64,000 nt of DNA, taken from Oricola sp. Its GTDB lineage: Bacteria > Pseudomonadota > Alphaproteobacteria > Rhizobiales > Rhizobiaceae. The notes beneath the pieces were generated by a model. That model made no database searches. It saw only the letters and a program-made list of their open reading frames with translations, and was not told the DNA's origin. Below are positions 27,761 through 40,488 of this stretch, piece after piece. The DNA is taken from assembly GCF_022763245.1 (NCBI RefSeq), contig NZ_JALEGV010000008.1, forward strand, positions 1-64,000, read 5' to 3'. A program made the translations under genes and the position numbers. The number at the start of each line of letters is the position of its first letter. The first letter of the stretch is position 1.

Positions 27761-28621
27761 ATGTCGAATTATGAAACGCTTTTGATCTGCCTCGGCGCAC
27801 AGAAGGCGGGCACGACCTGGCTGTGGCGCTATCTGCGTGAACATCCGCAATGCGCGGCGACCCCGCTGAAGGAAGTGCATTTCTTCGACGGCAGGCCCGA
27901 GCGCCTGCCGCGTTTGCTGATGGAAAACAGGCAGGAAGCAGCGGCGGCAGAATCGCCGGAGGACATCGGGTTTCTGGAAGAGAAGCGCATTTTCATCGAG
28001 CGCGCGATCGGATTTGTCGGCCAGGAAGAGCGGACTGCCGAGGCGTTCGAGACCCTCGTTTCCTCGATCGCGACACCCGGCACAAAGGTCGTGGCGGAAT
28101 TCACGCCAGCGAACGGAAAACTGGCGGCCCCCAAACTGAAAAAGCTTGCGGACCTTCCAATACAGCCGAAATTCGTGCTGACCTTGCGTGACCCGGTCGA
28201 CCGGCTCTGGTCGCAAATCCGGATGCTGGCGAGACGGCAGGCGACGGATAGCAACGACGCGCATTCTGTCGCCCTGGATATCCTGGCGCGCTTCGAAGCG
28301 GGTCTGAACGATGCTTTGCCGAAGCGGTCTGATTATGCCGCCATGTTGAGGCGGGCCAAGAAGGCGATTCCACCAGAGCGCTTGTTCGTGGATTTCTTCG
28401 AATCATTCATCAGTCAGCCCCGCATTGACGCGTTCTGCGATTTTCTCGGGATCGACCATCATCCAGCGCGCCTGGACGAACCCCGCGCCGTCGGCATCGA
28501 CATCCCACTCGCACCTGAGGTTCGAATTCGGCTACGCGACAGACTCATGGAGCAATATGAGGCCGTGGAAAAAGAACTGGGCACATTGCCGGAAAGATGG
28601 CGCGAAACGCTGCGGCTCTGA
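27761..28621 (+). CDS. Sulfotransferase family protein
   Basis: 286 residues from ATG 27761; the frame opens 42 codons earlier without protein character. The PAPS 5'-phosphosulfate loop is CLGAQKAGTTWLWRYL (residues ~11-26), and the 3'-phosphate site is FVLTLRDPVDRLWSQI. Both match NDST/heparan-type Sulfotransfer domains. It transfers sulfate from PAPS to a hydroxyl or amine acceptor in the cytoplasm. It is the only plus-strand gene of the island and converges with the TPR-sulfotransferase gene. Confidence 0.88.
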   Translation: MSNYETLLICLGAQKAGTTWLWRYLREHPQCAATPLKEVHFFDGRPERLPRLLMENRQEAAAAESPEDIGFLEEKRIFIERAIGFVGQEERTAEAFETLVSSIATPGTKVVAEFTPANGKLAAPKLKKLADLPIQPKFVLTLRDPVDRLWSQIRMLARRQATDSNDAHSVALDILARFEAGLNDALPKRSDYAAMLRRAKKAIPPERLFVDFFESFISQPRIDAFCDFLGIDHHPARLDEPRAVGIDIPLAPEVRIRLRDRLMEQYEAVEKELGTLPERWRETLRL

Positions 28622-28670
28622 TCTCAATCGGCCTTGTGTCCGAACTCGGCCTGGGCTTGCCCTGTTCCCG

Positions 28671-30062
28671 TCAGGACTCCTTGAACAGCTTGCGAATTTC
28701 CGGCCGGGTCGGTTCGTAACTGTGCGGCGCCGCCATGACGATGTCGAGGTCACCAGGCCGGTACGGCGCACCGAGGAACTCGAACAGCAATCTCAGGCGA
28801 TCGGAGCGGGAAACGATATCCTCGTAGGTAATCTGGAAGCAATTCGATCGGCCATTCGCGAACCCTGCAAACCGGCCCTCCGTCTCCTCTAGCCTGCGAC
28901 GCACCTCCTCGGGATCACGCTCCTTCCACCAGGCGCTGTTGAGAACGTCGTCGAGACGGCGCGTGAGGAAGACGAAGCCCGCTTGAGGAAACAACGTTTC
29001 GAGGAACCGCAGATAGTCCTCGAACCGGTCGCCAACCTCATCATACCTGATTTCCTTGAAGCCGAAGCAGGTCACGGTGCCGTCATCAGCGCGGTCAGAC
29101 AAGACGATGGTGCGGGCAACGTCTCTCAGCTCGTTCAAGACCCGTTCAAGGTCAACCAGACCTATGCCGAACCAGGGCGAATTGGGGCTTCGCGCATTCG
29201 TGTATTTCTCGGAGGCTCTGGACAGAGTGTCGTAGGCCTCGAAAAGGGAGAAAAACGCATTGCCGTTTTCGCCGCGCAGCAGCATCCCGTCGATACTGTT
29301 CAGCACACCTTGCAGGAGAGTGGAGCCGCTGCGGCCGTAAGTCACCACAAGAACAGACTGGAAGTTCAATGCGCTCGGACGGGTTCGTTCCCCGTCGTCG
29401 GCCCGGGACATGAGACGGAAATAGGCCTTTGCGGCTTCGCTGCGGGCCGTTTCCTCGCTCAAGGGAGGCGAAGTCCTTTCGCCCCGCGCCATGCTCTTGC
29501 AGCGCTCCAGGGCCTTCGACCAGGACGGGTTGGCCCGGTCGGCATGGTCAACAAGGCATCGTTCCCAAAGCCTGACCGCCTCGTCCCAGCGCCTGGACTT
29601 TTCGGCGACCCGTGCGAGGCCCGCAATGCCCCACGGCACGTCCGGCCGGGCCTCAAGCAAGTGCTCAAACACAGTACTCGCTTGGTCGAAGGCCTCGGAT
29701 CTCAAAAGGGCCTGCCCATGTTTGCGCTGTTCGTCTTCGGTGTAGCAGGAAGAAAAGCGTCGCCGAACCGTGCCCCATAGTTTCGCAGCCTCTTGAGGAT
29801 TGTCCGAGAGCAGCAGCGCGTTTGCCGCGGCGATGTGGGTTGCCGCATCGTCCGGGTGTGCCGATATGGCGGCCATGAATGCCTCTGCCGCCTCCTCGTG
29901 GCGCCCGGCCTCGGAAAGCTCTTCGCCGAGGACCTTGTAGAGGACCGCGGGATCGCCCCCCAGTTTCGAGAATGTCTTGCGCAACTTTCCGGCAGCCCGA
30001 TCGAAGGCGGTCGCTTTTTCCCGCCCCGGCTTCCGCGCAAAGATATCCTTGAGGCGCTTCAT
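28671..30062 (-). CDS. TPR-sulfotransferase fusion protein
   Basis: 463 residues from ATG 30062; starts at 30077 or GTG 30104 are possible and none has a clear Shine-Dalgarno. Residues ~30-200 contain TPR-like helices (LGEELSEAGRHEEAAEAFMAAI; HPDDAATHIAAANALL). The C-terminal ~240 residues are a sulfotransferase with P-loop VVTYGRSGSTLLQGVLN and a second site FLTRRLDDVLNSAWW. The TPR part may tether the enzyme to partner enzymes. It is the last gene of the minus-strand island operon. Confidence 0.88.
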   Translation of the reverse strand: MKRLKDIFARKPGREKATAFDRAAGKLRKTFSKLGGDPAVLYKVLGEELSEAGRHEEAAEAFMAAISAHPDDAATHIAAANALLLSDNPQEAAKLWGTVRRRFSSCYTEDEQRKHGQALLRSEAFDQASTVFEHLLEARPDVPWGIAGLARVAEKSRRWDEAVRLWERCLVDHADRANPSWSKALERCKSMARGERTSPPLSEETARSEAAKAYFRLMSRADDGERTRPSALNFQSVLVVTYGRSGSTLLQGVLNSIDGMLLRGENGNAFFSLFEAYDTLSRASEKYTNARSPNSPWFGIGLVDLERVLNELRDVARTIVLSDRADDGTVTCFGFKEIRYDEVGDRFEDYLRFLETLFPQAGFVFLTRRLDDVLNSAWWKERDPEEVRRRLEETEGRFAGFANGRSNCFQITYEDIVSRSDRLRLLFEFLGAPYRPGDLDIVMAAPHSYEPTRPEIRKLFKES

Positions 30063-30134
30063 GACTGTGCGGCGCATGTGCGTCTCGAACCGACAACCCC
30101 GCACATGGTCCGGATCCTCATGCCTCCCTGAGCC

Positions 30135-31400
30135 TCAACGCTGCGCAGAGACCGCAGCGGGCAACGCTCCGGAGTTGCTGTTCGGGAAGGGTTTCCCAGG
30201 ATCGGAAACGCCGAGAAAGGGGCAGAGCTTCTCGTAGCCGTCGCCATCGACGATGTTCATCTCCAGAAAGCGTTCTTTCGGCTTGTCCCGGAAAAAGTCG
30301 TGAACCCTGCGATAATAGGCCTCCCTGGCATCCAGCCAATTGTCGAAGGCGCCGTAGACGCCGTGATGAACGAAGCTGGCCTTGTTGCGAAATTTCCAGC
30401 GCGACGCCGACCGTGCAACGCCATCGATGGAGTCTTCGCCTGCATTGCGAAGATAATGCCGGGTTATCGAGGTCTCCCAACTCTCGGCGTCGCGCGTCGT
30501 GAAAACGAACTTCGAGTTGGGAAACGCGTGGTAGAGCGATTCGAACTGACTGCTCACAGATATGTCGGTGAACGCGTCGTAGAGAACGAAATCCGACTGC
30601 CCGATCAGATCCATCGTCATCGGATTGCTCCAATGAATGGAATGGAAGCCGAGACGGTTGAGGGCTGTATTCAAGGACGTCGTCCCGGTTCGGCTCAGTC
30701 CGATACCGAAGACCTTCTCGCGTTCGAAGTCCGGAAAGTTCGGCGAGACGATCTTGTCGCGGACCCTGAGCAAATCGCGAAGTTGCCTTTTCCCGCCAGC
30801 CCCCGATGGCAGGGACGCGACGCTTCTGCAAAACGCGTCGTGATCGCCGAGCGCGAGGTAGATCTCGCACAGCAGGATCTGCAACGGCGAATGCGCCGAA
30901 TCGGAACTGTCAGCTGTGTCTGCATCGTTCCCCGGCAAGCTTGCATCTGTCCCGCAAATAGCGGCCTCCGCCGAACACTCGATCACGCGATCGCGCAATC
31001 GGATCATGGCTTCCGACCACTGGCTGCCCCTGAAGCAAAACTGGATCAGATGGAGCAACCTTTGGCCGGTCACCCGGTTGAAATGCACGCGCTCAGCGAG
31101 CGCCAACAAACTTGGCAATTCGGATTCGGCTCGTTTCTGATCACCTCTTCTGGCTATGACCTGAACAAGGTTGGCTTTTTCGTCCAGTGAATCCGGGCAC
31201 AAGCAAAGAAAGCGTTCAAGCCTTGCGCGCAGTTCCTCCATGTCCTTGCGCTTTCGCCCCACGCGAACCAGACCGGCAAGCGGTTCGGGGTCATTTGGGC
31301 GCGCCGACGCTGCCGCCTCGAAGTGCTGGTCCGCTTCGTCGTACCGGTTTTGCTCCAGCAGGCGATCGCCTGTTTCCACGGACAAATCCACGCGTCTCAT
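30135..31400 (-). CDS. TPR-sulfotransferase protein, Sulfotransfer_4-like
   Basis: 421 residues. The N-terminal ~190 residues have TPR-like character (LEQNRYDEADQHFEAAASARP, PLQILLCEIYLALGDHDAF). The C-terminal domain has the P-loop GIGLSRTGTTSLNTALNRLG and SKFVFTTRDAESWETS, matching the Sulfotransfer_4 (PF17784) group. Its ATG overlaps the upstream stop (ATGA), so it is translationally coupled to the gene before it. The acceptor is unknown. Confidence 0.87.
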   Translation of the reverse strand: MRRVDLSVETGDRLLEQNRYDEADQHFEAAASARPNDPEPLAGLVRVGRKRKDMEELRARLERFLCLCPDSLDEKANLVQVIARRGDQKRAESELPSLLALAERVHFNRVTGQRLLHLIQFCFRGSQWSEAMIRLRDRVIECSAEAAICGTDASLPGNDADTADSSDSAHSPLQILLCEIYLALGDHDAFCRSVASLPSGAGGKRQLRDLLRVRDKIVSPNFPDFEREKVFGIGLSRTGTTSLNTALNRLGFHSIHWSNPMTMDLIGQSDFVLYDAFTDISVSSQFESLYHAFPNSKFVFTTRDAESWETSITRHYLRNAGEDSIDGVARSASRWKFRNKASFVHHGVYGAFDNWLDAREAYYRRVHDFFRDKPKERFLEMNIVDGDGYEKLCPFLGVSDPGKPFPNSNSGALPAAVSAQR

Positions 31401-32053
31401 CCTCTTTCGAAGGAGTAGCCGAAGCGCTTGATGTCATCCCGGTAGAACTGTCCGATCAAGTCACGAACCCGGGGCGTGAAGTAATCCTGATAGGAACCCT
31501 CGCGCTTCGAGCGGTTCCGATGGGGGAACGTGTCCGGCAAAGTCAGATGAAGCCTGCCGAAGATCGCCCTGACATCGGCCTCAAAGCTTTCAAACCGACC
31601 AAGATAGTCGACCGCATCGGGTTCGATCAGCGCGCTCTGGCTGCGGAAGTGCGAATTGCAGGTTTGCGGATCGAGCGTAGCGAGATGTTCGGCAAACTTG
31701 CCGATGTCCTGAAACGTGTCGATCTGCTCCGCCGAGAGCTTCATGAAGCCGACCTTGCGCGGATTGATCTTGTTCTTCCATCCGGAAACGAACCGGTCCC
31801 AAGGATTGCGCACGAATGCAAACTTGAAATACGCGCCATATTGCTCAGGATCGAACGGAACCTTGAATTCGTGTTCGATCTCGAAGGAGACAGACGCGTC
31901 CTTCAGCAGGTGGTAAAGAGTGCGCGTCCCCACTTTTGCATTGCGAAACCAAACGAGCCTCGGTGAAGAGCAGACCGTGAGCGAATACCTGCCCAACAGG
32001 TTCTTCGAACCGGCCCGCTCTCGTGGTCCGCTCAGGGAGGCCGTGTCCATCAT
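31397..32053 (-). CDS. Sulfotransferase family 2 (carbohydrate-type) protein
   Basis: 218 residues. The motifs WFRNAKVGTRTLYHLL (5'-PSB variant) and FKFAFVRNPWDRFVSGWKNK (3'-PB) are the signature of the Sulfotransfer_2 family (PF03567), whose members sulfate sugars such as GalNAc or uronic acids. It is compact, with no signal peptide. It overlaps both neighbours by 4 bp, so three genes here are translationally coupled. Confidence 0.88.
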   Translation of the reverse strand: MMDTASLSGPRERAGSKNLLGRYSLTVCSSPRLVWFRNAKVGTRTLYHLLKDASVSFEIEHEFKVPFDPEQYGAYFKFAFVRNPWDRFVSGWKNKINPRKVGFMKLSAEQIDTFQDIGKFAEHLATLDPQTCNSHFRSQSALIEPDAVDYLGRFESFEADVRAIFGRLHLTLPDTFPHRNRSKREGSYQDYFTPRVRDLIGQFYRDDIKRFGYSFERG

Positions 32054-34434
32054 GTGACGACCCCATCAGCCTCGACCAACGTCGAAAGATAGTGGTCGGG
32101 CGCATCGATCAGTCCGAGTTGAAGCAGTTGATCGCTCCCCGAATAGCGCTTGGTATGGGCATTCGAGAACCGGACCCCCTCCCCTTGAGCCTCCAGATAT
32201 CTCTCATAGGTCAGGTACCGGCGACGGCAGGCAGGCATGCGCGCGTTGTCGGCAAGATCCGCCCTGAACGTCTCCCGGAGTTTCCCCGACAGTTTGAAGT
32301 GAAGCAGCGCCGCGGAAACGTCCGAGACCCGGGCCGGCGAGATGACATGGCTACTCATCAAAAAACTGATGTCGCGCCCGCCCCGTATCAGGGGTGTCTT
32401 GGTCAGGTTCTCCCCACACCCGAACGCTTGCCGGGCACCGCCGCGAAAAACGGAATACGGACAGAGAACGCTTGGGTGCCGGTCGATCCGACTGTCGAAT
32501 AAAGGGTAGCTTTCCGGAAAATCGACGAACGCCCCTTCCCCATGCACGGGTTGCTCCTCGGCAAACATGTCAAGCATGAACGCAGGAAGCGCTTCCTCAT
32601 TCCTGGCGCTCATGTAGTCGGTCAGATGACGCAGACTCTTCATCTCCATGCCGGGAAAAACCAGAGCTTCGTCCACATCGACATAACTCACCCAACCGTC
32701 AGCGCCATGTTCCCGCGCCAGTTGGTTGATCCACTGCATGCCCGATTTGGCGACGGCATAGCTCTCGTCGGTCCAAAAGACATGAACGTCGGATTGGTCC
32801 AGCAGGTATTCGCCGCTCCCGTCGTTCGAAGCGTTGTCGACAAAGAAGAACCTGTTCACGCCGAGCGAGCGGTAATAGTCGAGGAACCAGGGCAAACGCC
32901 ATTTCTCGTTTCGAATGGCGGTAAACACCCTTATTTCGTCCTCGACCGGCGCGATCGGGTTCTCGTCACGGCGCTGCAGCGCTTCGGGGTGGCAAGGTTG
33001 GATGTGGGGGACGAAGTGAATTTGTTTTCTGAGATTCCACTTTGCCTTGGCGGTTTCATCATCGCCAAGGCGGCTCGCGCGCCACATCTCCAATTCAACG
33101 ATCTTGGGATGCAACGTGCGGGGCATGTCCTCGATGATCTGCGCCGCCTCGTCTTCCATGTGCATGGCGACGAGCAGTCTGCACAACTGGTTCTTTGCGG
33201 CCACGTCCCATGGCTGGCTGGCGACGAGATCTTCAAGGATCTCCCTGATCTTCACAAATGTTGACGGATCTCCGACGTCGAGGCTCTTGCGCAGAAGGAT
33301 ATGTGCCTTCTTGTGAAGAAGTGCCGCACGCAGCCTCAGTGGAGCCTCTCCGGGCCGAAGCCGTTCGAGATAGGCCTCCACCAGCGATTCCACACCTTCC
33401 AGATCATTGCTCGCATGAAGGATCTTGATCAGCTGATTATAGCGAAACGGTTCCTTGTCGATCGAGTCGCAGACAGAGTCGTAATGCGCACGCGCCTGCT
33501 CGAAATCGGGAAGGCTCAACAACGCGTCGATATAGCCGGAATGCATCGCCGCGTTGCGGGGATGCGCTTCGCAAAGCGCGCGCCAGCGCTCTGCCGCAAC
33601 CTCGTATTGCTTGGACGCCGAGGCCGTTTTCGCCAGCTCCGAAGCCAGCAATTCGTCTGAAGGCTCGCGCCGATTCAATGCCTGGAATAGCTCTTCCGCT
33701 TCGTCGTAGCGGCCCTCGCCCCGCAGGCACACGCCGCGCTTGATCGAAATCTCGGGAACCTCACCCCGGTCGCGGGCGATTTCGTCCAGAGCCGAAAGGG
33801 CTTCGCGAAATCGCTCCTGCGCCTCAAGGATCTCCACCCGCAGCAACTGGAACTCGGTGGTGTCGAACGCGTCTGCAACAGCTCTGAAGTGAGCCATGGC
33901 CTGCTCGGTTTCGAGGATCTTGCACAGGTTCCTGATATGGCCCCTGTGAAAGTCGCCCCGGTCAGGCGCTCGCTCGCACAAAGCCTTCCAGCGGCCCACG
34001 GCGATTCCAAAGCGTTGTTCCTCGACGGCGGAACGCGCCATGCTCGTCAGATCGTCGAGCGCATCCGGCTCTTCCTGCAACACTCTTGCAAACAATGCTT
34101 CCGCTGGGGCGAACTGACCGGTTTGCAGGAGCGCGACATCATATTCCACGCACAGAACCGGATCCGGACCATGGCGTTCGAAGAGATCACCTAGATGTGT
34201 GACGACATCGTTCAGTCTGCGTTCAGCGCGTAACAGTCTGGCCTGCACCAGCCCGGTGGACAGTTTTCCATCAGGAAGCTGCGCGACAAGCTGTCGTGCG
34301 GCTTCGAGATCACCCGCCCTTATCAGCTTTCGAACCCGCCTTTCGCGATGATCCGGCGTATGCCGTGCCATTCCGCGTAGCTTGCTCCAGAGCTTCCCTG
34401 CGACGCCATTCTTTTCTCGCGCGGCGATCGGCAT
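32050..34434 (-). CDS. TPR-glycosyltransferase fusion (GT2/GT92-like)
   Basis: 794 residues from ATG 34434 (MPIAAREKNG); the frame is open 93 codons further up, but that part has no protein character. Residues ~30-470 are many TPR-like repeats (RGEGRYDEAEELFQALNRREP; LLALPDF-type helices). The C-terminal ~280 residues form a glycosyltransferase of the Glyco_tranf_2_4/GT92-like group: VFTAIRNEKWRLPWFLDYY, FFVDNASNDGSGEYL and the metal motif region SYVDVDEALVF. It is cytoplasmic. Its stop overlaps the next gene by 4 bp. Confidence 0.87.
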   Translation of the reverse strand: MPIAAREKNGVAGKLWSKLRGMARHTPDHRERRVRKLIRAGDLEAARQLVAQLPDGKLSTGLVQARLLRAERRLNDVVTHLGDLFERHGPDPVLCVEYDVALLQTGQFAPAEALFARVLQEEPDALDDLTSMARSAVEEQRFGIAVGRWKALCERAPDRGDFHRGHIRNLCKILETEQAMAHFRAVADAFDTTEFQLLRVEILEAQERFREALSALDEIARDRGEVPEISIKRGVCLRGEGRYDEAEELFQALNRREPSDELLASELAKTASASKQYEVAAERWRALCEAHPRNAAMHSGYIDALLSLPDFEQARAHYDSVCDSIDKEPFRYNQLIKILHASNDLEGVESLVEAYLERLRPGEAPLRLRAALLHKKAHILLRKSLDVGDPSTFVKIREILEDLVASQPWDVAAKNQLCRLLVAMHMEDEAAQIIEDMPRTLHPKIVELEMWRASRLGDDETAKAKWNLRKQIHFVPHIQPCHPEALQRRDENPIAPVEDEIRVFTAIRNEKWRLPWFLDYYRSLGVNRFFFVDNASNDGSGEYLLDQSDVHVFWTDESYAVAKSGMQWINQLAREHGADGWVSYVDVDEALVFPGMEMKSLRHLTDYMSARNEEALPAFMLDMFAEEQPVHGEGAFVDFPESYPLFDSRIDRHPSVLCPYSVFRGGARQAFGCGENLTKTPLIRGGRDISFLMSSHVISPARVSDVSAALLHFKLSGKLRETFRADLADNARMPACRRRYLTYERYLEAQGEGVRFSNAHTKRYSGSDQLLQLGLIDAPDHYLSTLVEADGVVT

Positions 34435-34702
34435 GACTGAAACGTTCGGTCCCTCACATTGCCGGCGAATTCTTCTTGGTTTGACGTCGCGCCGGTCAAA
34501 GTCACCACTAGCATAGCGAAACGAGGAAAATTGACCATGCCTGGTGAGCATTGAGCCGCACCAACCACAGATTTTCGGCGTTGCGCCGGCCGTTCGGCTG
34601 CTTCGCCGGGAGGCTTGCGGTCCCCTTAACGCCCACACCAACAAAAAAATCGTCTGGGACGTCGTCTTTGAGCAGCCCTTGACCGTGATGCAGCTGACCG
34701 AG
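34435..34702 (-). other. Intergenic stretch inside the island operon
   Basis: 268 bp between the glycosyltransferase-like stop and the chosen TPR-GT start. It is open in the TPR-GT frame but without conserved character. It could hold an internal promoter; I see no hairpin or small gene. Confidence 0.45.
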
Positions 34703-35770
34703 CTATCCCGCATTGACGATGCGCTGTCCCAAATCTCGATCCGGTGCGTCCGTCAGTTCGTCCAGATAGAGCAGCGTGGAGAAGATGGCCTCGTTTCGCG
34801 TCCGGTATCTTTGCTTTTGCGCCGACTTTCGCTCCAGCCCGTGCTGACCGGATGAGAGTCTGAAAATCTTGGCGTCCGACAGCTTGAAATCCCCAAGGCA
34901 GGACTGCGGATGCTCTTGCGGTAACCAGCGGATCGTCGGCCAATCATGCCAGGCACCCGGAACGCCGAGCCGGATCAGCAGTTCGGCCTTGTCACGCAGG
35001 CCATAAGGAAATCGTTCATCGAACTCCAAAGGCGAACGGTGATGAAAGGCGATTTGCGGCTCTTCGTCACTTCGACCGATCGGATCCCTTTGATGAAACT
35101 GGCTGTTGTGCTCCAGGCGTTCGAAAGGCAGGACGACATGGGAGGCGAGCGGTTCAGACCGAACCTGTTCGGCCAGACGTGAAAACGCTTCTTCGGTCAA
35201 TATGCAGTTGCCATCGAGCGGCAAAGTCCATCGCGCCAAGGGTTTGCCAATGCTCAGGGCCAGATTCCTGGCGCCGTTTACGTTCATCGCGTAGCGAATC
35301 TTGCTCGCGCCGGAAAGCAGTCTGACCTGAAGCACTTCCTGCCGAGACAGCCCCCTGCCGGCGATCAACCCAAGTGCGGTCTCACCGCCAGGACCGTCTT
35401 CGTCCCATCGCTTGGCCCGATATTCAGAAGGCTCGAAGGGAAGATGAACATATTCCGCGCCAGCCCGCGAAAGCGCATCGAGAACTGCACTTTCAGAGTC
35501 CGGATTGAAAATCCTGTTGACGATGAACAGCTTCTTCGCACCAGGGAATTCAGCCTCGGTGTCGAGAATGAAGCGAAGATTCTCGATGGTTTGACGCGCG
35601 TCGTGCCGAGGGTGCAGATCATTCCCGAGGATCCGTGTGATCAGGAATTCATGCTTGCGCGTGTCACCAAAAAGCTCGTGCGCCGACGGCCGATCGCGCA
35701 CGGAGGCGGACAGATCGGCATCGCCCTTACCGTCCCGGCTTTCTTCGAACGCTTCTCGCTGCCGGCGCAT
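34703..35770 (-). CDS. Unassigned glycosyltransferase-like protein
   Basis: 355 residues from ATG 35770 (GGAGAAGG upstream); a TTG at 35797 is an alternative. Not assigned to a named family. The opening FLITRILGNDLHPRHDARQ then a helix and KKLFIVNRIFNPDSESAVL look like the first two beta-alpha units of a GT-A fold. RWTLPLDGNCILTEEAF contains a DGN that could be the metal/nucleotide-sugar motif. The position between sulfotransferase and glycosyltransferase genes supports a sugar-transfer role, but this is inference. Confidence 0.7.
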   Translation of the reverse strand: MRRQREAFEESRDGKGDADLSASVRDRPSAHELFGDTRKHEFLITRILGNDLHPRHDARQTIENLRFILDTEAEFPGAKKLFIVNRIFNPDSESAVLDALSRAGAEYVHLPFEPSEYRAKRWDEDGPGGETALGLIAGRGLSRQEVLQVRLLSGASKIRYAMNVNGARNLALSIGKPLARWTLPLDGNCILTEEAFSRLAEQVRSEPLASHVVLPFERLEHNSQFHQRDPIGRSDEEPQIAFHHRSPLEFDERFPYGLRDKAELLIRLGVPGAWHDWPTIRWLPQEHPQSCLGDFKLSDAKIFRLSSGQHGLERKSAQKQRYRTRNEAIFSTLLYLDELTDAPDRDLGQRIVNAG

Positions 35771-35845
35771 CCTTCTCCAGAGTGAACTCAGTGGCAATTG
35801 ACTGCCCTCGGTTGCTGCTGTGGCGCTCGCCCTCCTAAACGCATT

Positions 35846-36976
35846 TCAGAAACGCCGAGACGCTCCCCATGCGAAGGAAAACAGCGATCGTCTGCATCTG
35901 CGAGGGACGAGGCTTTCAAGACGCCGCAGATATTCCGCCGTGACGCCAGACAATCGGTCTTCGAGTAGATCGTAGTCGGTCCGCTCCGGGTAATCCGAAA
36001 AATCTTCACCGAACAGGCGATCCTCTTGCGGGAAGTACCTCTCGCGCACCCACTCGTTTGAGGCACGAAAGCGATCGAAGAATTCTTCAGCCTCGCCGCG
36101 GGGCACACGTCTCGGTTTTCCTTTCAGTTCGGCCTCGACCGCAGTGTGAATCTCTTTGACAACCTTGTCGCGCAATCCATTGGGCATCCAGGGTTTTCTG
36201 ACGCCGTTGACCCGGCTCAGCACATATTGCGCATCCGCGCTCAAGGAAGGGTTCAGCGCGACATCGGGTACGTTGATGGTCCCGAGCGGAAGACCCGCCA
36301 ACTGGAAGAAGCGTTCGATGTTTTCCCGGCGGTCGCCCGTGTAGGTCGCGATCCTGATGTCCGCTCGATCGAGATGAGGCGTGAACCGATCTATCAACGC
36401 CCGATAGTCGTAGTAGTTGCCCATATCGTCCAGCACGCGATCCGGAGGCGCCGCGAGGAAGCAGTGCGACGCCAAATCCTGAAAGACGCCATCGAAGTGT
36501 GCGTACCCAGCACGCAACACGCTGCTGAAACGGCTGACCGCCAGGCGATCCTGACGCCGAAGGCACATGACCACGGTGATCTCATCGACCAGTGGGGCGA
36601 AGAAACCGAGCAACCGCTCGATCTCGCTGGAGGTAGTCAGGCGGCTGTGTACCAGTTCGCTGCTGACAACCAGCACCCGCCAGTTGGGGTTGCGTTCCAG
36701 TTCCCTGCGGAAGCGCCTCCTGATTGCGCGTCGGTATCTGAGCTCATTCGTTCTCTTCGACGCGAGCACATGTGCTTTGACATTGTCGAACACGCCGTCG
36801 TCCAGACTGGCAGCAACCAGCCAGGTGTGATTGACCGGACCGAGGGATTTCGGAAACAGGATGCCCGCGCGGGCGAGGTCTTCGCGACTGTCGGCGAGTG
36901 CAGTTTGAATGCTTGTTGTCCCGGTCTTCTCCGTGCCGACATGCAGCACGAGCCGCCGCGCAGTGCCGCCGTTCAT
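35846..36976 (-). CDS. Sulfotransferase-like P-loop protein
   Basis: 376 residues from ATG 36976. The N-terminus RRLVLHVGTEKTGTTSIQTA is a clear sulfotransferase-type 5'-phosphosulfate loop. VLVVSSELVHSR and VVMCLRRQDRLAVSRFSS follow, the latter in the place of the 3'-phosphate-binding strand and helix. Overall it resembles divergent bacterial sulfotransferase-like proteins with no assigned acceptor. It lies between the ABC exporter and the unassigned glycosyltransferase on the same strand. Confidence 0.8.
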   Translation of the reverse strand: MNGGTARRLVLHVGTEKTGTTSIQTALADSREDLARAGILFPKSLGPVNHTWLVAASLDDGVFDNVKAHVLASKRTNELRYRRAIRRRFRRELERNPNWRVLVVSSELVHSRLTTSSEIERLLGFFAPLVDEITVVMCLRRQDRLAVSRFSSVLRAGYAHFDGVFQDLASHCFLAAPPDRVLDDMGNYYDYRALIDRFTPHLDRADIRIATYTGDRRENIERFFQLAGLPLGTINVPDVALNPSLSADAQYVLSRVNGVRKPWMPNGLRDKVVKEIHTAVEAELKGKPRRVPRGEAEEFFDRFRASNEWVRERYFPQEDRLFGEDFSDYPERTDYDLLEDRLSGVTAEYLRRLESLVPRRCRRSLFSFAWGASRRF

Positions 36977-37112
36977 GGCCTCGATGATCCGCCAGATCCT
37001 GAGCCGCATTGAACAAAGTGATCTTGCATCAATGCACGGAGCGCCTCATCCGGGCTGGCTCCGCCGCACATCGCATCGCGCGCGCCGAGCCGCCGCTCGT
37101 GCGAACCCCAAT

Positions 37113-38885
37113 TCATGCGACTTCCCACTGGGTTCTCAATCGCTCCGTCCGCTCGTCATTTCCGAACAGCGTTGTGTAGGCACCGTTCCGCTGAATGAGT
37201 TCTTCATGTGTGCCGCTCTCGGCGACAGTTCCCTTGTCCATCAAGTAAATGCGGTCCGCCGCCATGATCGTGGACAGGCGATGGGCGATGACCAGTGTCG
37301 TCCTGTTCTTCATCAGTTCGGTAATCGCCTGCTGCACCTTGCGTTCGGACTTGTTGTCGAGAGCGGATGTCGCTTCGTCCAGCAACAGGATTGGGGCATC
37401 CTTGAGCATGGCCCGGGCGATGGCGATCCGTTGACGCTGTCCACCCGAGAGCAGAATGCCGTTTTCCCCCACCATCGAGTCGAGCCCGTCCGGCAGTTCC
37501 CGGGCAAAATCACTCACCAATGCGGCGTCCGCGGCCGCAAGGACAGCGTCGTCGTCTGCACGAAGGTTGCCCAGACCGATGTTTTCCAGAATCGAGCCCG
37601 TGAACAGGAAGGTGTCCTGGTTCACAACCGCGATGTTCGCGCGAAGGCTGGCATTGTCGATCTCGCGAATATCCATGCCATCGATTGTGATACGCCCGGA
37701 CCAAGGGTCATAGAGACGCTGTATCAGGTTGGAAATCGTGGACTTGCCAACACCGGAAGGTCCGATCAGGGCGACCACCGTTCCAGGGGCAGCAGTCAGC
37801 GAAACGTCGTGAAGGATCTGTCGCTTGTCGCGATAACCGAAATCGACGCCTTCGAGTGCAAGATGACCGGCAATACGGTCGAGACGCCGGGTTCCGCTGC
37901 GCGCCTCCTCGGTATCCGGCTCGTCCAGCACCTCATAGATCATCCTGACCCGGTTGAGACTGCGCTGCAGGCTGACGTTCAATCGCGCGAGACGCTTGGC
38001 TGGCTCGTAGGCCAAGAGAAACGCCGTCAGAAACGCCATGTATTCGCCCGGCGTCTTGCCCATCGATGTCGTTTGCCACCCCGCGTAGAGGATGACGATG
38101 GCAATCGCGATGCCGCCCAGCGTTTCCATGACGGGACTGGTCGTCGCCTGGATCGCCGTGATCGCATTGCCGCGCTTCTCGGCACCCCGCGCGGCTTCGG
38201 CGACCTTGTCCCGCATCGTATCTTCCAGCGAGAATGCCTTGACCACGCGGATACCCTGGCTGGCCTCGTGCGTCGCGGCGACAACGGCAGCCGTTGTCGC
38301 GAATTCCTCGGAATCCAGAGCGCGGATCTTGCGCACCAGCCTGATGACAGCAAAAACCACGATCGGCGCGAAGACAGAGACGACCAGCGCCATCAGCGGC
38401 TCCTGATAGAGCATGACGCAGAACAAGGCGACGACCGTCAGAAAATCGCGCCCAAGCGAGGCCGCACACAGGAGGATCGCCTCTTTCGGCGCCGCGGCCG
38501 CTTTGGCGATGCGCATGATGAGCGTGCTGGAATGGTTCTGCGCGAAGTAGTCCAGACGCAGCGACGTGATCTTGCCGATCAAACGGATCTGGAAATCCGC
38601 CGTGATCGCATTGCCGATCCGCTCGAGTGTCAGTGCCTGGCCGTAGGCGGCGAACCCCTTGGCCATCGAAATCGCAACCACCGCGAACACGAGCCCCGCG
38701 ATCCTGGCGGCATTCTGATCCACGAAAATGTCGTTTACGACATATCGCATCAATGCTGCGCTCGACGCAGTGGTGAGTGCGACAATGACCATGCATGCGA
38801 AGGCCAGGGCGTAGGTTCCCGCCCTGTCCTTGCTGAGACTGTCGCGGAAGAGCCTCTTGAGAAGCACGAACGCACCGTCCGGCAT
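37113..38885 (-). CDS. ABC exporter, fused permease/ATPase (MsbA-like)
   Basis: 590 residues from ATG 38885, chosen for GGGAG 9 nt upstream; a GTG at 38927 would add 14 residues. Six membrane helices (residues ~20-300) precede an ATPase with Walker A GPSGVGKST, signature LSGGQRQR, Walker B ILLLDEATSALD and the switch histidine in VIAHRLST. This half-transporter forms homodimers that flip lipids, lipid-linked glycans or peptides. Within the island it is the likely exporter of the sulfated product. The glycosyltransferase gene upstream ends 30 bp before its start. Confidence 0.92.
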   Translation of the reverse strand: MPDGAFVLLKRLFRDSLSKDRAGTYALAFACMVIVALTTASSAALMRYVVNDIFVDQNAARIAGLVFAVVAISMAKGFAAYGQALTLERIGNAITADFQIRLIGKITSLRLDYFAQNHSSTLIMRIAKAAAAPKEAILLCAASLGRDFLTVVALFCVMLYQEPLMALVVSVFAPIVVFAVIRLVRKIRALDSEEFATTAAVVAATHEASQGIRVVKAFSLEDTMRDKVAEAARGAEKRGNAITAIQATTSPVMETLGGIAIAIVILYAGWQTTSMGKTPGEYMAFLTAFLLAYEPAKRLARLNVSLQRSLNRVRMIYEVLDEPDTEEARSGTRRLDRIAGHLALEGVDFGYRDKRQILHDVSLTAAPGTVVALIGPSGVGKSTISNLIQRLYDPWSGRITIDGMDIREIDNASLRANIAVVNQDTFLFTGSILENIGLGNLRADDDAVLAAADAALVSDFARELPDGLDSMVGENGILLSGGQRQRIAIARAMLKDAPILLLDEATSALDNKSERKVQQAITELMKNRTTLVIAHRLSTIMAADRIYLMDKGTVAESGTHEELIQRNGAYTTLFGNDERTERLRTQWEVA

Positions 38886-38914
38886 GGAGAGTTTCTCCCG
38901 GAGACCTGCCAGCG

Positions 38915-39910
38915 TCATCCCTCGCACCGGGGTGCCTCGCTTGCCGCCAAATCAACGAACGTCTCCGAGGAACCGTGTCCGCCTTCACTCCACTTGTAGA
39001 GTTCCGACTCTCGCCCGAGCAGTGCCTGGATGCGTCCCGTCGACCAGCCGAGCGACCGGATGGCGACAACAGGCGAAGCAATCCCGAAGACCGGCACCAA
39101 AACGAGCATCACGCCCAAGACGACCCTGACCGAAGCGATGGTTACTGTCCGCAGCACAACCGTGGAGGAAACTTTCCTGTTCTTGATCCGGAAATTCGTG
39201 ATCGACTGGGCCGCCGCCCGGCGAAATTGATAGGGAAAGGACAATCTGCATGGCGCCATCGTCTCGTGAACTCTGGCAGTCGGACACCAGGCAATTCTCC
39301 CGCCTGCGGCCTTCACGTCGCGGTGGAACGCGGTATCCGAACCGCCAGAGAAAAGCAGCTTCTCGTCGAAGCGTACTCCATTTCTACGCTGCCATCCGAG
39401 GTCGCAGAGCCAGTTGTTGGTCACCACCGTAAACGGCCGTCCGCACTCCGCCGCGCGCGCCGTTCTTCGGTTCTTGCGACGCATGCGCCCAACAAGGCTT
39501 GCATTGACAAAACGCGCCCAGGTTCCCGCTCTATCGGACAAGGGCGTAACCTCCACCGGTCCCCCGATCAGATGGGCTTCAGTCTTTTTCCAGCAATCCA
39601 CGAGATTTGTCAGCCATTGACTGTCTGGATACTCGTCATCATCAATGAAACAGAGGACGTCCGCCCCCATGGCCTGGGCTTCATCAAGGGCGCGGTTGCG
39701 TGCCACGGGTATTCCGCGACGCGGTTCGCAAACGTAATGAATTTTGGCGAAGCCAGTCCTCCTCGCCAAGGAAACGTCTCGAGCGCTTTCGTTCAGGTCG
39801 TTGTCGACCACCAGAATGGCCAACCGTCCACAATCTGGCCTGGTCAGGGTGTCGAAACTGGATAGCAGCCGGTCAAGACCCTTGGGTCGCCGATGTGTCA
39901 GCACAGCCAC
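38915..39910 (-). CDS. GT2 family glycosyltransferase
   Basis: 331 residues from GTG 39910. The GT-A core is present: LAILVVDNDLN, PRRGIPVARNRALDEA, FIDDDEYPD (metal-binding DDD) and LLFSGGSDTAFHRDVKAAGG. One or two C-terminal hydrophobic segments (~265-295) suggest membrane association. GTG 39910 cuts into the first beta-strand, since upstream in-frame codons read PSVVV; no ATG exists in the open frame. A CTG at 39961 with AAGGGAG upstream would restore the strand. It is the first gene of the minus-strand island operon. Confidence 0.87.
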   Translation of the reverse strand: MAVLTHRRPKGLDRLLSSFDTLTRPDCGRLAILVVDNDLNESARDVSLARRTGFAKIHYVCEPRRGIPVARNRALDEAQAMGADVLCFIDDDEYPDSQWLTNLVDCWKKTEAHLIGGPVEVTPLSDRAGTWARFVNASLVGRMRRKNRRTARAAECGRPFTVVTNNWLCDLGWQRRNGVRFDEKLLFSGGSDTAFHRDVKAAGGRIAWCPTARVHETMAPCRLSFPYQFRRAAAQSITNFRIKNRKVSSTVVLRTVTIASVRVVLGVMLVLVPVFGIASPVVAIRSLGWSTGRIQALLGRESELYKWSEGGHGSSETFVDLAASEAPRCEG

Positions 39911-39961
39911 GACGACAGAAGGGAAAGGTGCCTCCGGATGATGCCCCTCTAACGTGTTCAG

Positions 39962-40403: not shown

Positions 40404-40419
40404 TGGTGCGGTCGAGAAG
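40401..40419 (+). repeat. att-like segment overlapping the tRNA-Leu(GAG) 3' end
   Basis: The tRNA 3' end plus three downstream bases, read on the plus strand, begins CTTTGGTGCG and matches 27454-27472 at 16 of 19 positions in direct orientation. It is the presumed resident attachment site of the island. Confidence 0.5.
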
Positions 40420-40488
40420 ACTCGAACTTCCACGGGTTGCCCCACAGCGACCTCAACGCTGCGCGTCTACCAATTCCGCCACGACCGC
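40404..40488 (-). tRNA. tRNA-Leu (anticodon GAG)
   Basis: 85 nt including an encoded CCA. On the minus strand the acceptor arm GCGGTCG pairs with CGACCGC, the anticodon stem CAGCG/CGCTG encloses loop TTGAGGT (anticodon GAG), a long class II variable arm follows, and the T arm contains GTTCGAGTC. The 3' end points into the sulfotransferase island. Confidence 0.96.

Follow-up and report, generated by a model that had tools for sequence, protein, structure and literature searches.

The stretch of DNA analysed here (the window; 64,000 nucleotides from Oricola sp.) is part of contig 29 in a genome of 5.6 Mb that is divided among 45 contigs. Its flanking genes resemble replicons of Sinorhizobium, Shinella and Rhizobium at the nucleotide level (about 76-79% over 31-44% of 6 kb among the ten matches listed), as expected for a relative of the Rhizobiaceae. 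It contains an island of nine open genes, g1 to g9, numbered from left to right and filling positions 27761-39910. Together they encode five sulfotransferase homologues, three glycosyltransferases (one of them assigned by its predicted fold) and one MsbA-type ATP-binding cassette (ABC) exporter. The genes, the phosphate-binding loops (P-loops) of the sulfotransferases, the tetratricopeptide repeat (TPR) regions and the adjoining tRNA gene are as follows.

27761..28621, plus strand: g1, sulfotransferase (Sulfotransfer_3/1) with P-loop GAQKAGTTW; Pfam and a PDB sequence match, 3rnl.
28671..30104, minus strand: g2, TPR repeats and Sulfotransfer_3 domain with P-loop TYGRSGSTLL; Pfam and a counterpart in genome G375.
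30135..31400, minus strand: g3, TPR repeats and Sulfotransfer_4 domain with P-loop GLSRTGTTSL; Pfam, PDB and a G375 counterpart.
31397..32053, minus strand: g4, carbohydrate-type sulfotransferase (Sulfotransfer_2) with P-loop NAKVGTRTL; Pfam and a G375 counterpart.
32050..34713, minus strand: g5, long TPR region and C-terminal GT2-type glycosyltransferase (Glyco_tranf_2_4); Pfam and a G375 counterpart.
34703..35797, minus strand: g6, predicted GT-A glycosyltransferase with no family match; predicted fold.
35846..37009, minus strand: g7, sulfotransferase with P-loop GTEKTGTTS, fused to g6 in G375; profile match and invariant residues.
37113..38927, minus strand: g8, MsbA-type ABC exporter, membrane domain and ATPase; Pfam, NCBIfam and tree.
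38915..39910, minus strand: g9, GT2 glycosyltransferase (Glycos_transf_2); Pfam and counterparts in genomes G121 and G019.
40404..40488, minus strand: tRNA-Leu(GAG), whose 3' end forms the island's right boundary; homology break against same-genus genomes.

A sequence-only reading of the window had described these genes as closely spaced and mostly on one strand, which is the case for g2 to g9, an operon-like run of eight on the minus strand; g1, on the plus strand, is convergent with it. According to the listed open reading frames (ORFs), g9/g8, g6/g5, g5/g4 and g4/g3 overlap, and the gaps are 103 bases between g8 and g7 (the maximum), 48 between g7 and g6 and 30 between g3 and g2. The start of g5 is likely an internal ATG at 34434 rather than the listed one, so that a gap of about 270 bases would follow g6. 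A terminator scan found 14 candidates against 12.9 expected from shuffles.

The drop in G+C content noted in that reading was also confirmed: 59.4% in the island (12 one-kb bins) against 65.0% outside it (50 bins; Mann-Whitney p = 8.4e-8). Five other genomes of the genus were searched, and the three with the flanking hydrolase gene (G151, G152 and G153) were compared at the site; G058 and G146 have no clear hydrolase orthologue and were hence left out. Homology to these three genomes breaks at most 1 base from the 3' end of tRNA-Leu(GAG). The distance between hydrolase and tRNA is about 92 bases in G151 (counted from the hydrolase match) and about 857 bases in G153, while in G152 about 5.8 kb of other genes lie there (L050 8325-14119); by eye, these include genes for an ectoine aminotransferase, an aspartokinase and a cold-shock protein. 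This interval between tRNA and hydrolase looks like an insertion hotspot. In G151 (L051 2832-2989), tRNA-Leu(GAG) and about 75 bases upstream of it are inverted relative to lipB when compared with the window, G152 and G153. No integrase was found among the nine genes, and no convincing copy of the tRNA end, as expected for att repeats, was found at the left edge; the island does contain matches of 14 and 15 bases to internal tRNA sequence, which were taken as chance. The insertion at a tRNA 3' end, in a site that lacks the island in three relatives, marks the block as a genomic island, acquired horizontally beside a tRNA gene.

The count of five sulfotransferase-like proteins held when the family search was run. 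Four of them, g1 (Sulfotransfer_3, E-value 1.5e-12), g2 (Sulfotransfer_3, 1e-7), g3 (Sulfotransfer_4, 3.5e-32) and g4 (Sulfotransfer_2, 5e-18), are above the curated Pfam cut-offs and have intact P-loops. In PDB sequence searches, g1 matched 3rnl (9e-7) and g3 matched the sulfotransferases 8y9p and 5tiz; g2 retrieved TPR proteins only and g4 nothing. Pfam gives no match for the fifth, g7, but its alignment with seven relatives (8 rows), used as a profile, found the solved sulfotransferase 3rnl at 4.1e-10, the next best match being at 0.29. P-loop residues G25, K28 and T29, together with R151, are invariant in all 8 rows. By this profile, g7 is classed as a sulfotransferase, and the island thus encodes five. 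Such genes are not peculiar to the island, since four of the six PF13469 matches (one below cut-off) and two of the three PF03567 matches of this genome lie outside the window; each of the five further genomes of the genus has between two and six matches to PF13469. Matches to g7 also occur in 8 plasmid records, including Ponticoccus and several Paracoccus denitrificans records that share one match.

Pfam identifies g5 (TPR and Glyco_tranf_2_4) and g9 (Glycos_transf_2) as glycosyltransferases, as the sequence-only reading had proposed for three of the proteins; the third, g6, is a predicted GT-A glycosyltransferase on the basis of its modelled fold. It has no match in Pfam, NCBIfam or PHROGs, and PDB sequence searches returned nothing credible. 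Its profile aligned weakly with that of the GT2 relatives of g9 (32% probability across 42 columns) and not with the profiles of g5 or g7. A first fold, computed from 3 sequences, was poor (predicted local distance difference test, pLDDT, 44) and was not used.

The best NCBIfam match of g8 is MsbA (TIGR02203), at 499.3 bits against a cut-off of 602. Its closest paralogue in the same genome is likewise below this cut-off, at 505.8 bits. Judged by its family score, g8, labelled MsbA-like earlier, is an MsbA-type exporter and not MsbA proper. The ATPase motifs are intact, and in a tree of nine sequences g8 clusters with the exporters of G121 and G019 (support 99/98), while the ABC protein of the Sinorhizobium meliloti msbA2 operon is distant. 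Other exporters of this type occur near sulfotransferase genes: in NGR234, noeE is annotated about 3 kb from a g8-like exporter, and an MsbA-type exporter adjoins a Sulfotransfer_2-like gene at L103 7584-10465 and at 599852-602735 of S. meliloti 1021 pSymB. This 2.9 kb stretch matches 82 plasmid records, 62 of them over at least 80% of its length, and 66 of the 82 are from Sinorhizobium. The msbA2 operon was considered as this pair of g8-like exporter and sulfotransferase in S. meliloti and was ruled out, since it lies at about 938 kb of pSymB and the pair at 600 kb.

Relatives of the island genes were sought in two genome samples, one of the family (151 genomes) and one class-wide (385), both including the genome studied here. 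In the family sample, at E 0.001, g6 was found in 6 genomes (own included), g7 in 15 and g4 in 21, many of these matches being weak; below 1e-20, g6 was found in 5, g7 in 4 and g4 in its own genome only. In the class-wide sample, at E 1e-10, g6 occurs in 4 of the 385 genomes, own included.

Two gene sets recur. G121 and G019 belong to another genus and carry a cluster in which g7 and g6 are joined by a further g6-like gene, an exporter resembling g8 and a gene resembling g9 (35-36% identity). A tRNA-Ser gene adjoins the G121 cluster, and in G019 a gene that by eye resembles a tyrosine-type integrase (L055 4326-5507) lies about 1.8 kb from the cluster. In G375, from another alphaproteobacterial family, g5, g4, g3 and g2 stand in a row with the order kept and identities of 43, 46, 41 and 45%, respectively; the P-loops of g2 and g3 are identical to those of the window and that of g4 is changed in the last two of ten motif residues. 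A GT2-type gene weakly similar to g9 (26%, E 1e-4) and another glycosyltransferase gene adjoin this row. G375 also encodes an 802-residue protein whose first half corresponds to g7 (45% over 327 residues) and whose second half corresponds to g6 (34% over 358), with two P-loop residues changed in the g7 part. The counterpart of this fusion in G270, of the same genus, is 54% identical and has one internal TAG; G538, a third genome of the family, gave a short match only. The g7 tree (96/98) and the g6 tree (91/93, under the strict level of the tool) each unite the window, G121/G019 and G375/G270. Since g6 and g7 are fused in G375, they likely act in succession on a shared acceptor.

Some other relatives of g6 also have sulfation or sugar genes nearby. 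G002 has two g6-like domains next to a CysN-APS kinase fusion (APS, adenosine 5'-phosphosulfate), together with a gene of weak similarity to g7 (50% across 40 residues). Used singly, the g6 and g7 proteins gave no match in viral scans; used as alignments, they found nine loci for g6 and 11 for g7. The nine g6-type loci are IMG/VR contigs (L118-L126), some of which seem to be copies judging from match length and E-value. Two of them were read by ORF: their neighbours include sub-cut-off Sulfotransfer_3 matches and other sugar genes, namely NeuB, a cytidylyltransferase and FkbM in one locus and GT2 in the other. This suggests that the viral loci are phage glycan-modification cassettes.

Sulfation needs a donor, 3'-phosphoadenosine 5'-phosphosulfate (PAPS). 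PAPS synthesis genes, a hallmark of sulfated polysaccharide loci according to PMC11641403, are absent from the island, and the earlier statement that the window holds none is correct: in the search of the genome for PAPS genes, which the sequence-only reading had asked for, APS kinase matched once, on contig 26. Just upstream of this APS kinase lie inositol-phosphatase-type and PAPS-reductase-type genes, which we read from their families and order as putative cysQ-like and cysD-like genes. APS kinase is present in all six genomes of the genus. With PAPS genes elsewhere in the genome, their absence from the island is no obstacle to sulfation. Within about 40 kb on contig 26 there are also a CapD-like gene, a g7-like gene, a Wzt gene and a stretch of 1588 residues in which a WbsX domain is accompanied by two glycosyltransferase domains and a sulfotransferase domain; this is probably a second sulfated-polysaccharide locus. 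It lies at about 178-217 kb (L087, L059 and L081), with G+C fractions of 0.613 in L059, 0.616 in L081 and 0.648 in L087.

Glycosyltransferases and sulfotransferases stand side by side in the island, as in loci for sulfated polysaccharides or capsules. We favour, with somewhat better than even confidence, the interpretation that the island arrived by horizontal transfer as an operon whose products build a surface oligosaccharide or glycolipid, attach several sulfate groups to it and export it. The g6-g7 fusion and the recurring gene row strengthen it. According to this proposal, g9, g6 and g5 would add sugars in the cytoplasm, giving a short glycan on a carrier, and g7 (paired with g6, or fused to it elsewhere), g4, g2 and g3 would sulfate different positions from PAPS. 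In g2, g3 and g5, the TPR regions probably keep the enzymes in contact with each other or with the acceptor, and g8 would flip the lipid-linked product, once complete, through the inner membrane. The donor PAPS would be supplied by the cysQ-, cysD- and cysNC-like genes of contig 26 and sugar nucleotides by the rest of the genome. The gene content, the intact motifs, the insertion site, the recurring gene sets, the g6-g7 fusion, the predicted fold of g6 and the presence of PAPS genes in the genome are observed; in this scheme we infer the acceptor, the sugars, the order of the steps, the lipid link and the carriage of this particular product by g8. It is tempting to go further and imagine a coupled assembly line, in which the GT-A/sulfotransferase pair adds and sulfates each sugar while the TPR enzymes dock on each other, the product being an oligosaccharide sulfated precisely and at several positions, of a class undescribed in bacteria; we regard this version as speculative and probably more than the truth.

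Several observations weigh against assembly and export of a sulfated glycan by the island. Searches of the nine genes with Pfam and NCBIfam revealed none for a polymerase, a priming transferase, an outer-membrane channel or nucleotide sugars; neither Wzx/Wzy nor Kps with an outer-membrane polysaccharide export (OPX) protein was found among them, and matches of the TPR regions to export porins were far under cut-off. The promoter scan found 2 candidates against 3.1 expected from shuffles. The related clusters share part of the island: no g1-g5 counterparts occur in the 19 kb read of G121 and G019, tblastn found no g1 counterpart in L053-L056 or L113-L115, and the exporter is not conserved in G375, where the ORF at that place has no Pfam match. 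Nor are g6 and g7 always together, as relatives of g6 occur without a detected g7 in G022, Reinekea and G491 (a 6 kb contig), and relatives of g7 occur without g6, for example in G010. In Reinekea, with no g7 match, an ABC ATPase gene lies between two g6-like genes; the g6-like domain of G022 adjoins a 619-residue ORF that NCBIfam did not match at 1e-100 and that did not match g8 by tblastn. As the island has no polymerase, outer-membrane channel or nucleotide-sugar genes, a short or lipid-linked product, or a decoration, fits better than a complete capsule locus.

This bears on the strongest alternative, that the island supplies side sugars and sulfates for a polysaccharide whose synthesis is encoded by the larger contig 26 locus. 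The APS kinase, CapD-like, WbsX/glycosyltransferase/sulfotransferase, Wzt-type ABC ATPase and g7-like genes of that locus are in its favour, as is the want of polymerization, export-channel and sugar-nucleotide genes in the island. Nevertheless, a pure decoration cassette would not need an exporter, and the island includes one, whose relatives in G121 and G019 accompany counterparts of g6, g7 and g9; we hold this alternative to be possible though fairly unlikely. We consider it improbable that the sulfotransferases act on a non-glycan acceptor (protein tyrosine, the target of tyrosylprotein sulfotransferases, or a lipid or a small molecule) secreted by the ABC exporter. The TPR and Sulfotransfer_3 architecture, the wide substrate range of the sulfotransferase superfamily and the worm drug-activating sulfotransferase (oxamniquine resistance protein) among the solved matches of g3 would allow it, but there are three glycosyltransferases in the run, a glycosyltransferase is fused to a sulfotransferase, and g4 belongs to the carbohydrate-type Sulfotransfer_2. 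Finally, silent or decaying acquired DNA with no present function would agree with the low G+C content, the lack of promoter excess, the site without the island in G151, G152 and G153 and the failure to find g6 and g7 in G058 and G146, but it is very improbable with all nine frames open and the inspected catalytic motifs intact.

Assembly and export of a sulfated glycan, proposed in the sequence-only reading, remains the best-supported interpretation, while its epithet "heavily sulfated" reflects the number of enzymes and nothing else. The genes of a complete polysaccharide locus are missing, and the island may decorate or complete a glycan made elsewhere.

Enzymes that sulfate glycans at specific positions are wanted for heparin-like and other bioactive polysaccharides, and to our knowledge few bacterial ones are known in detail. 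The operon offers four co-recurring sulfotransferases (g2, g3, g4 and g7), with a natural glycosyltransferase-sulfotransferase fusion in a relative, and g6 would represent a predicted glycosyltransferase family unnamed in the three libraries searched. The results also suggest that the capacity for sulfation passes as a set from one bacterial family to another and can be inserted at tRNA genes.

In the same broad bacterial group, NodH, NoeE and LpsS carry out PAPS-dependent sulfation of surface or secreted glycans. These rhizobial sulfotransferases are usually single and act on Nod factor or lipopolysaccharide; the island differs from them by its row of four sulfotransferases, its TPR domains and the glycosyltransferase fusion.

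In the open-licence literature searched, none of the titles or abstracts listed concerns this gene set, and the closest published systems resemble it in part. Sulfated capsular polysaccharide loci have been reported in Cobetia marina KMM 1449 and Vibrio sp. KMM 8419 (PMC11766843, PMC11641403). According to these reports, they bring together glycosyltransferases, sulfotransferases and an ABC exporter, as the island does, and a distinct G+C content and horizontal transfer are discussed for the Vibrio locus. They are far larger (about 70 and 80 genes) and include genes for nucleotide sugars and PAPS, capsule-type ABC export and, in Vibrio, three named sulfotransferases, whereas the island has 9 genes, 5 of them for sulfotransferases, an MsbA-type exporter and no PAPS or sugar-nucleotide genes. 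The synechan (xss) cluster of Synechocystis, described in PMC13125312 as located on a megaplasmid, likewise combines glycosyltransferases with dedicated sulfotransferases (xssA and xssE) for a surface sulfated glycan; it differs by its eight glycosyltransferases, polymerization and export genes, regulators and two sulfotransferases. In the S. meliloti msbA2 operon, an MsbA-family exporter stands beside two glycosyltransferases and an acyltransferase, and synthesis and export of an unknown polysaccharide have been proposed for it (PMC3687685); the main text of that report does not use the word sulfotransferase. In summary, the island would work like the published loci and differs from them by four recurring sulfotransferases in a row, TPR architectures, glycosyltransferase-sulfotransferase pairing and compactness; the recurrence and fusion in G375, the predicted GT-A fold of g6 and the PAPS genes elsewhere in the genome are new here.

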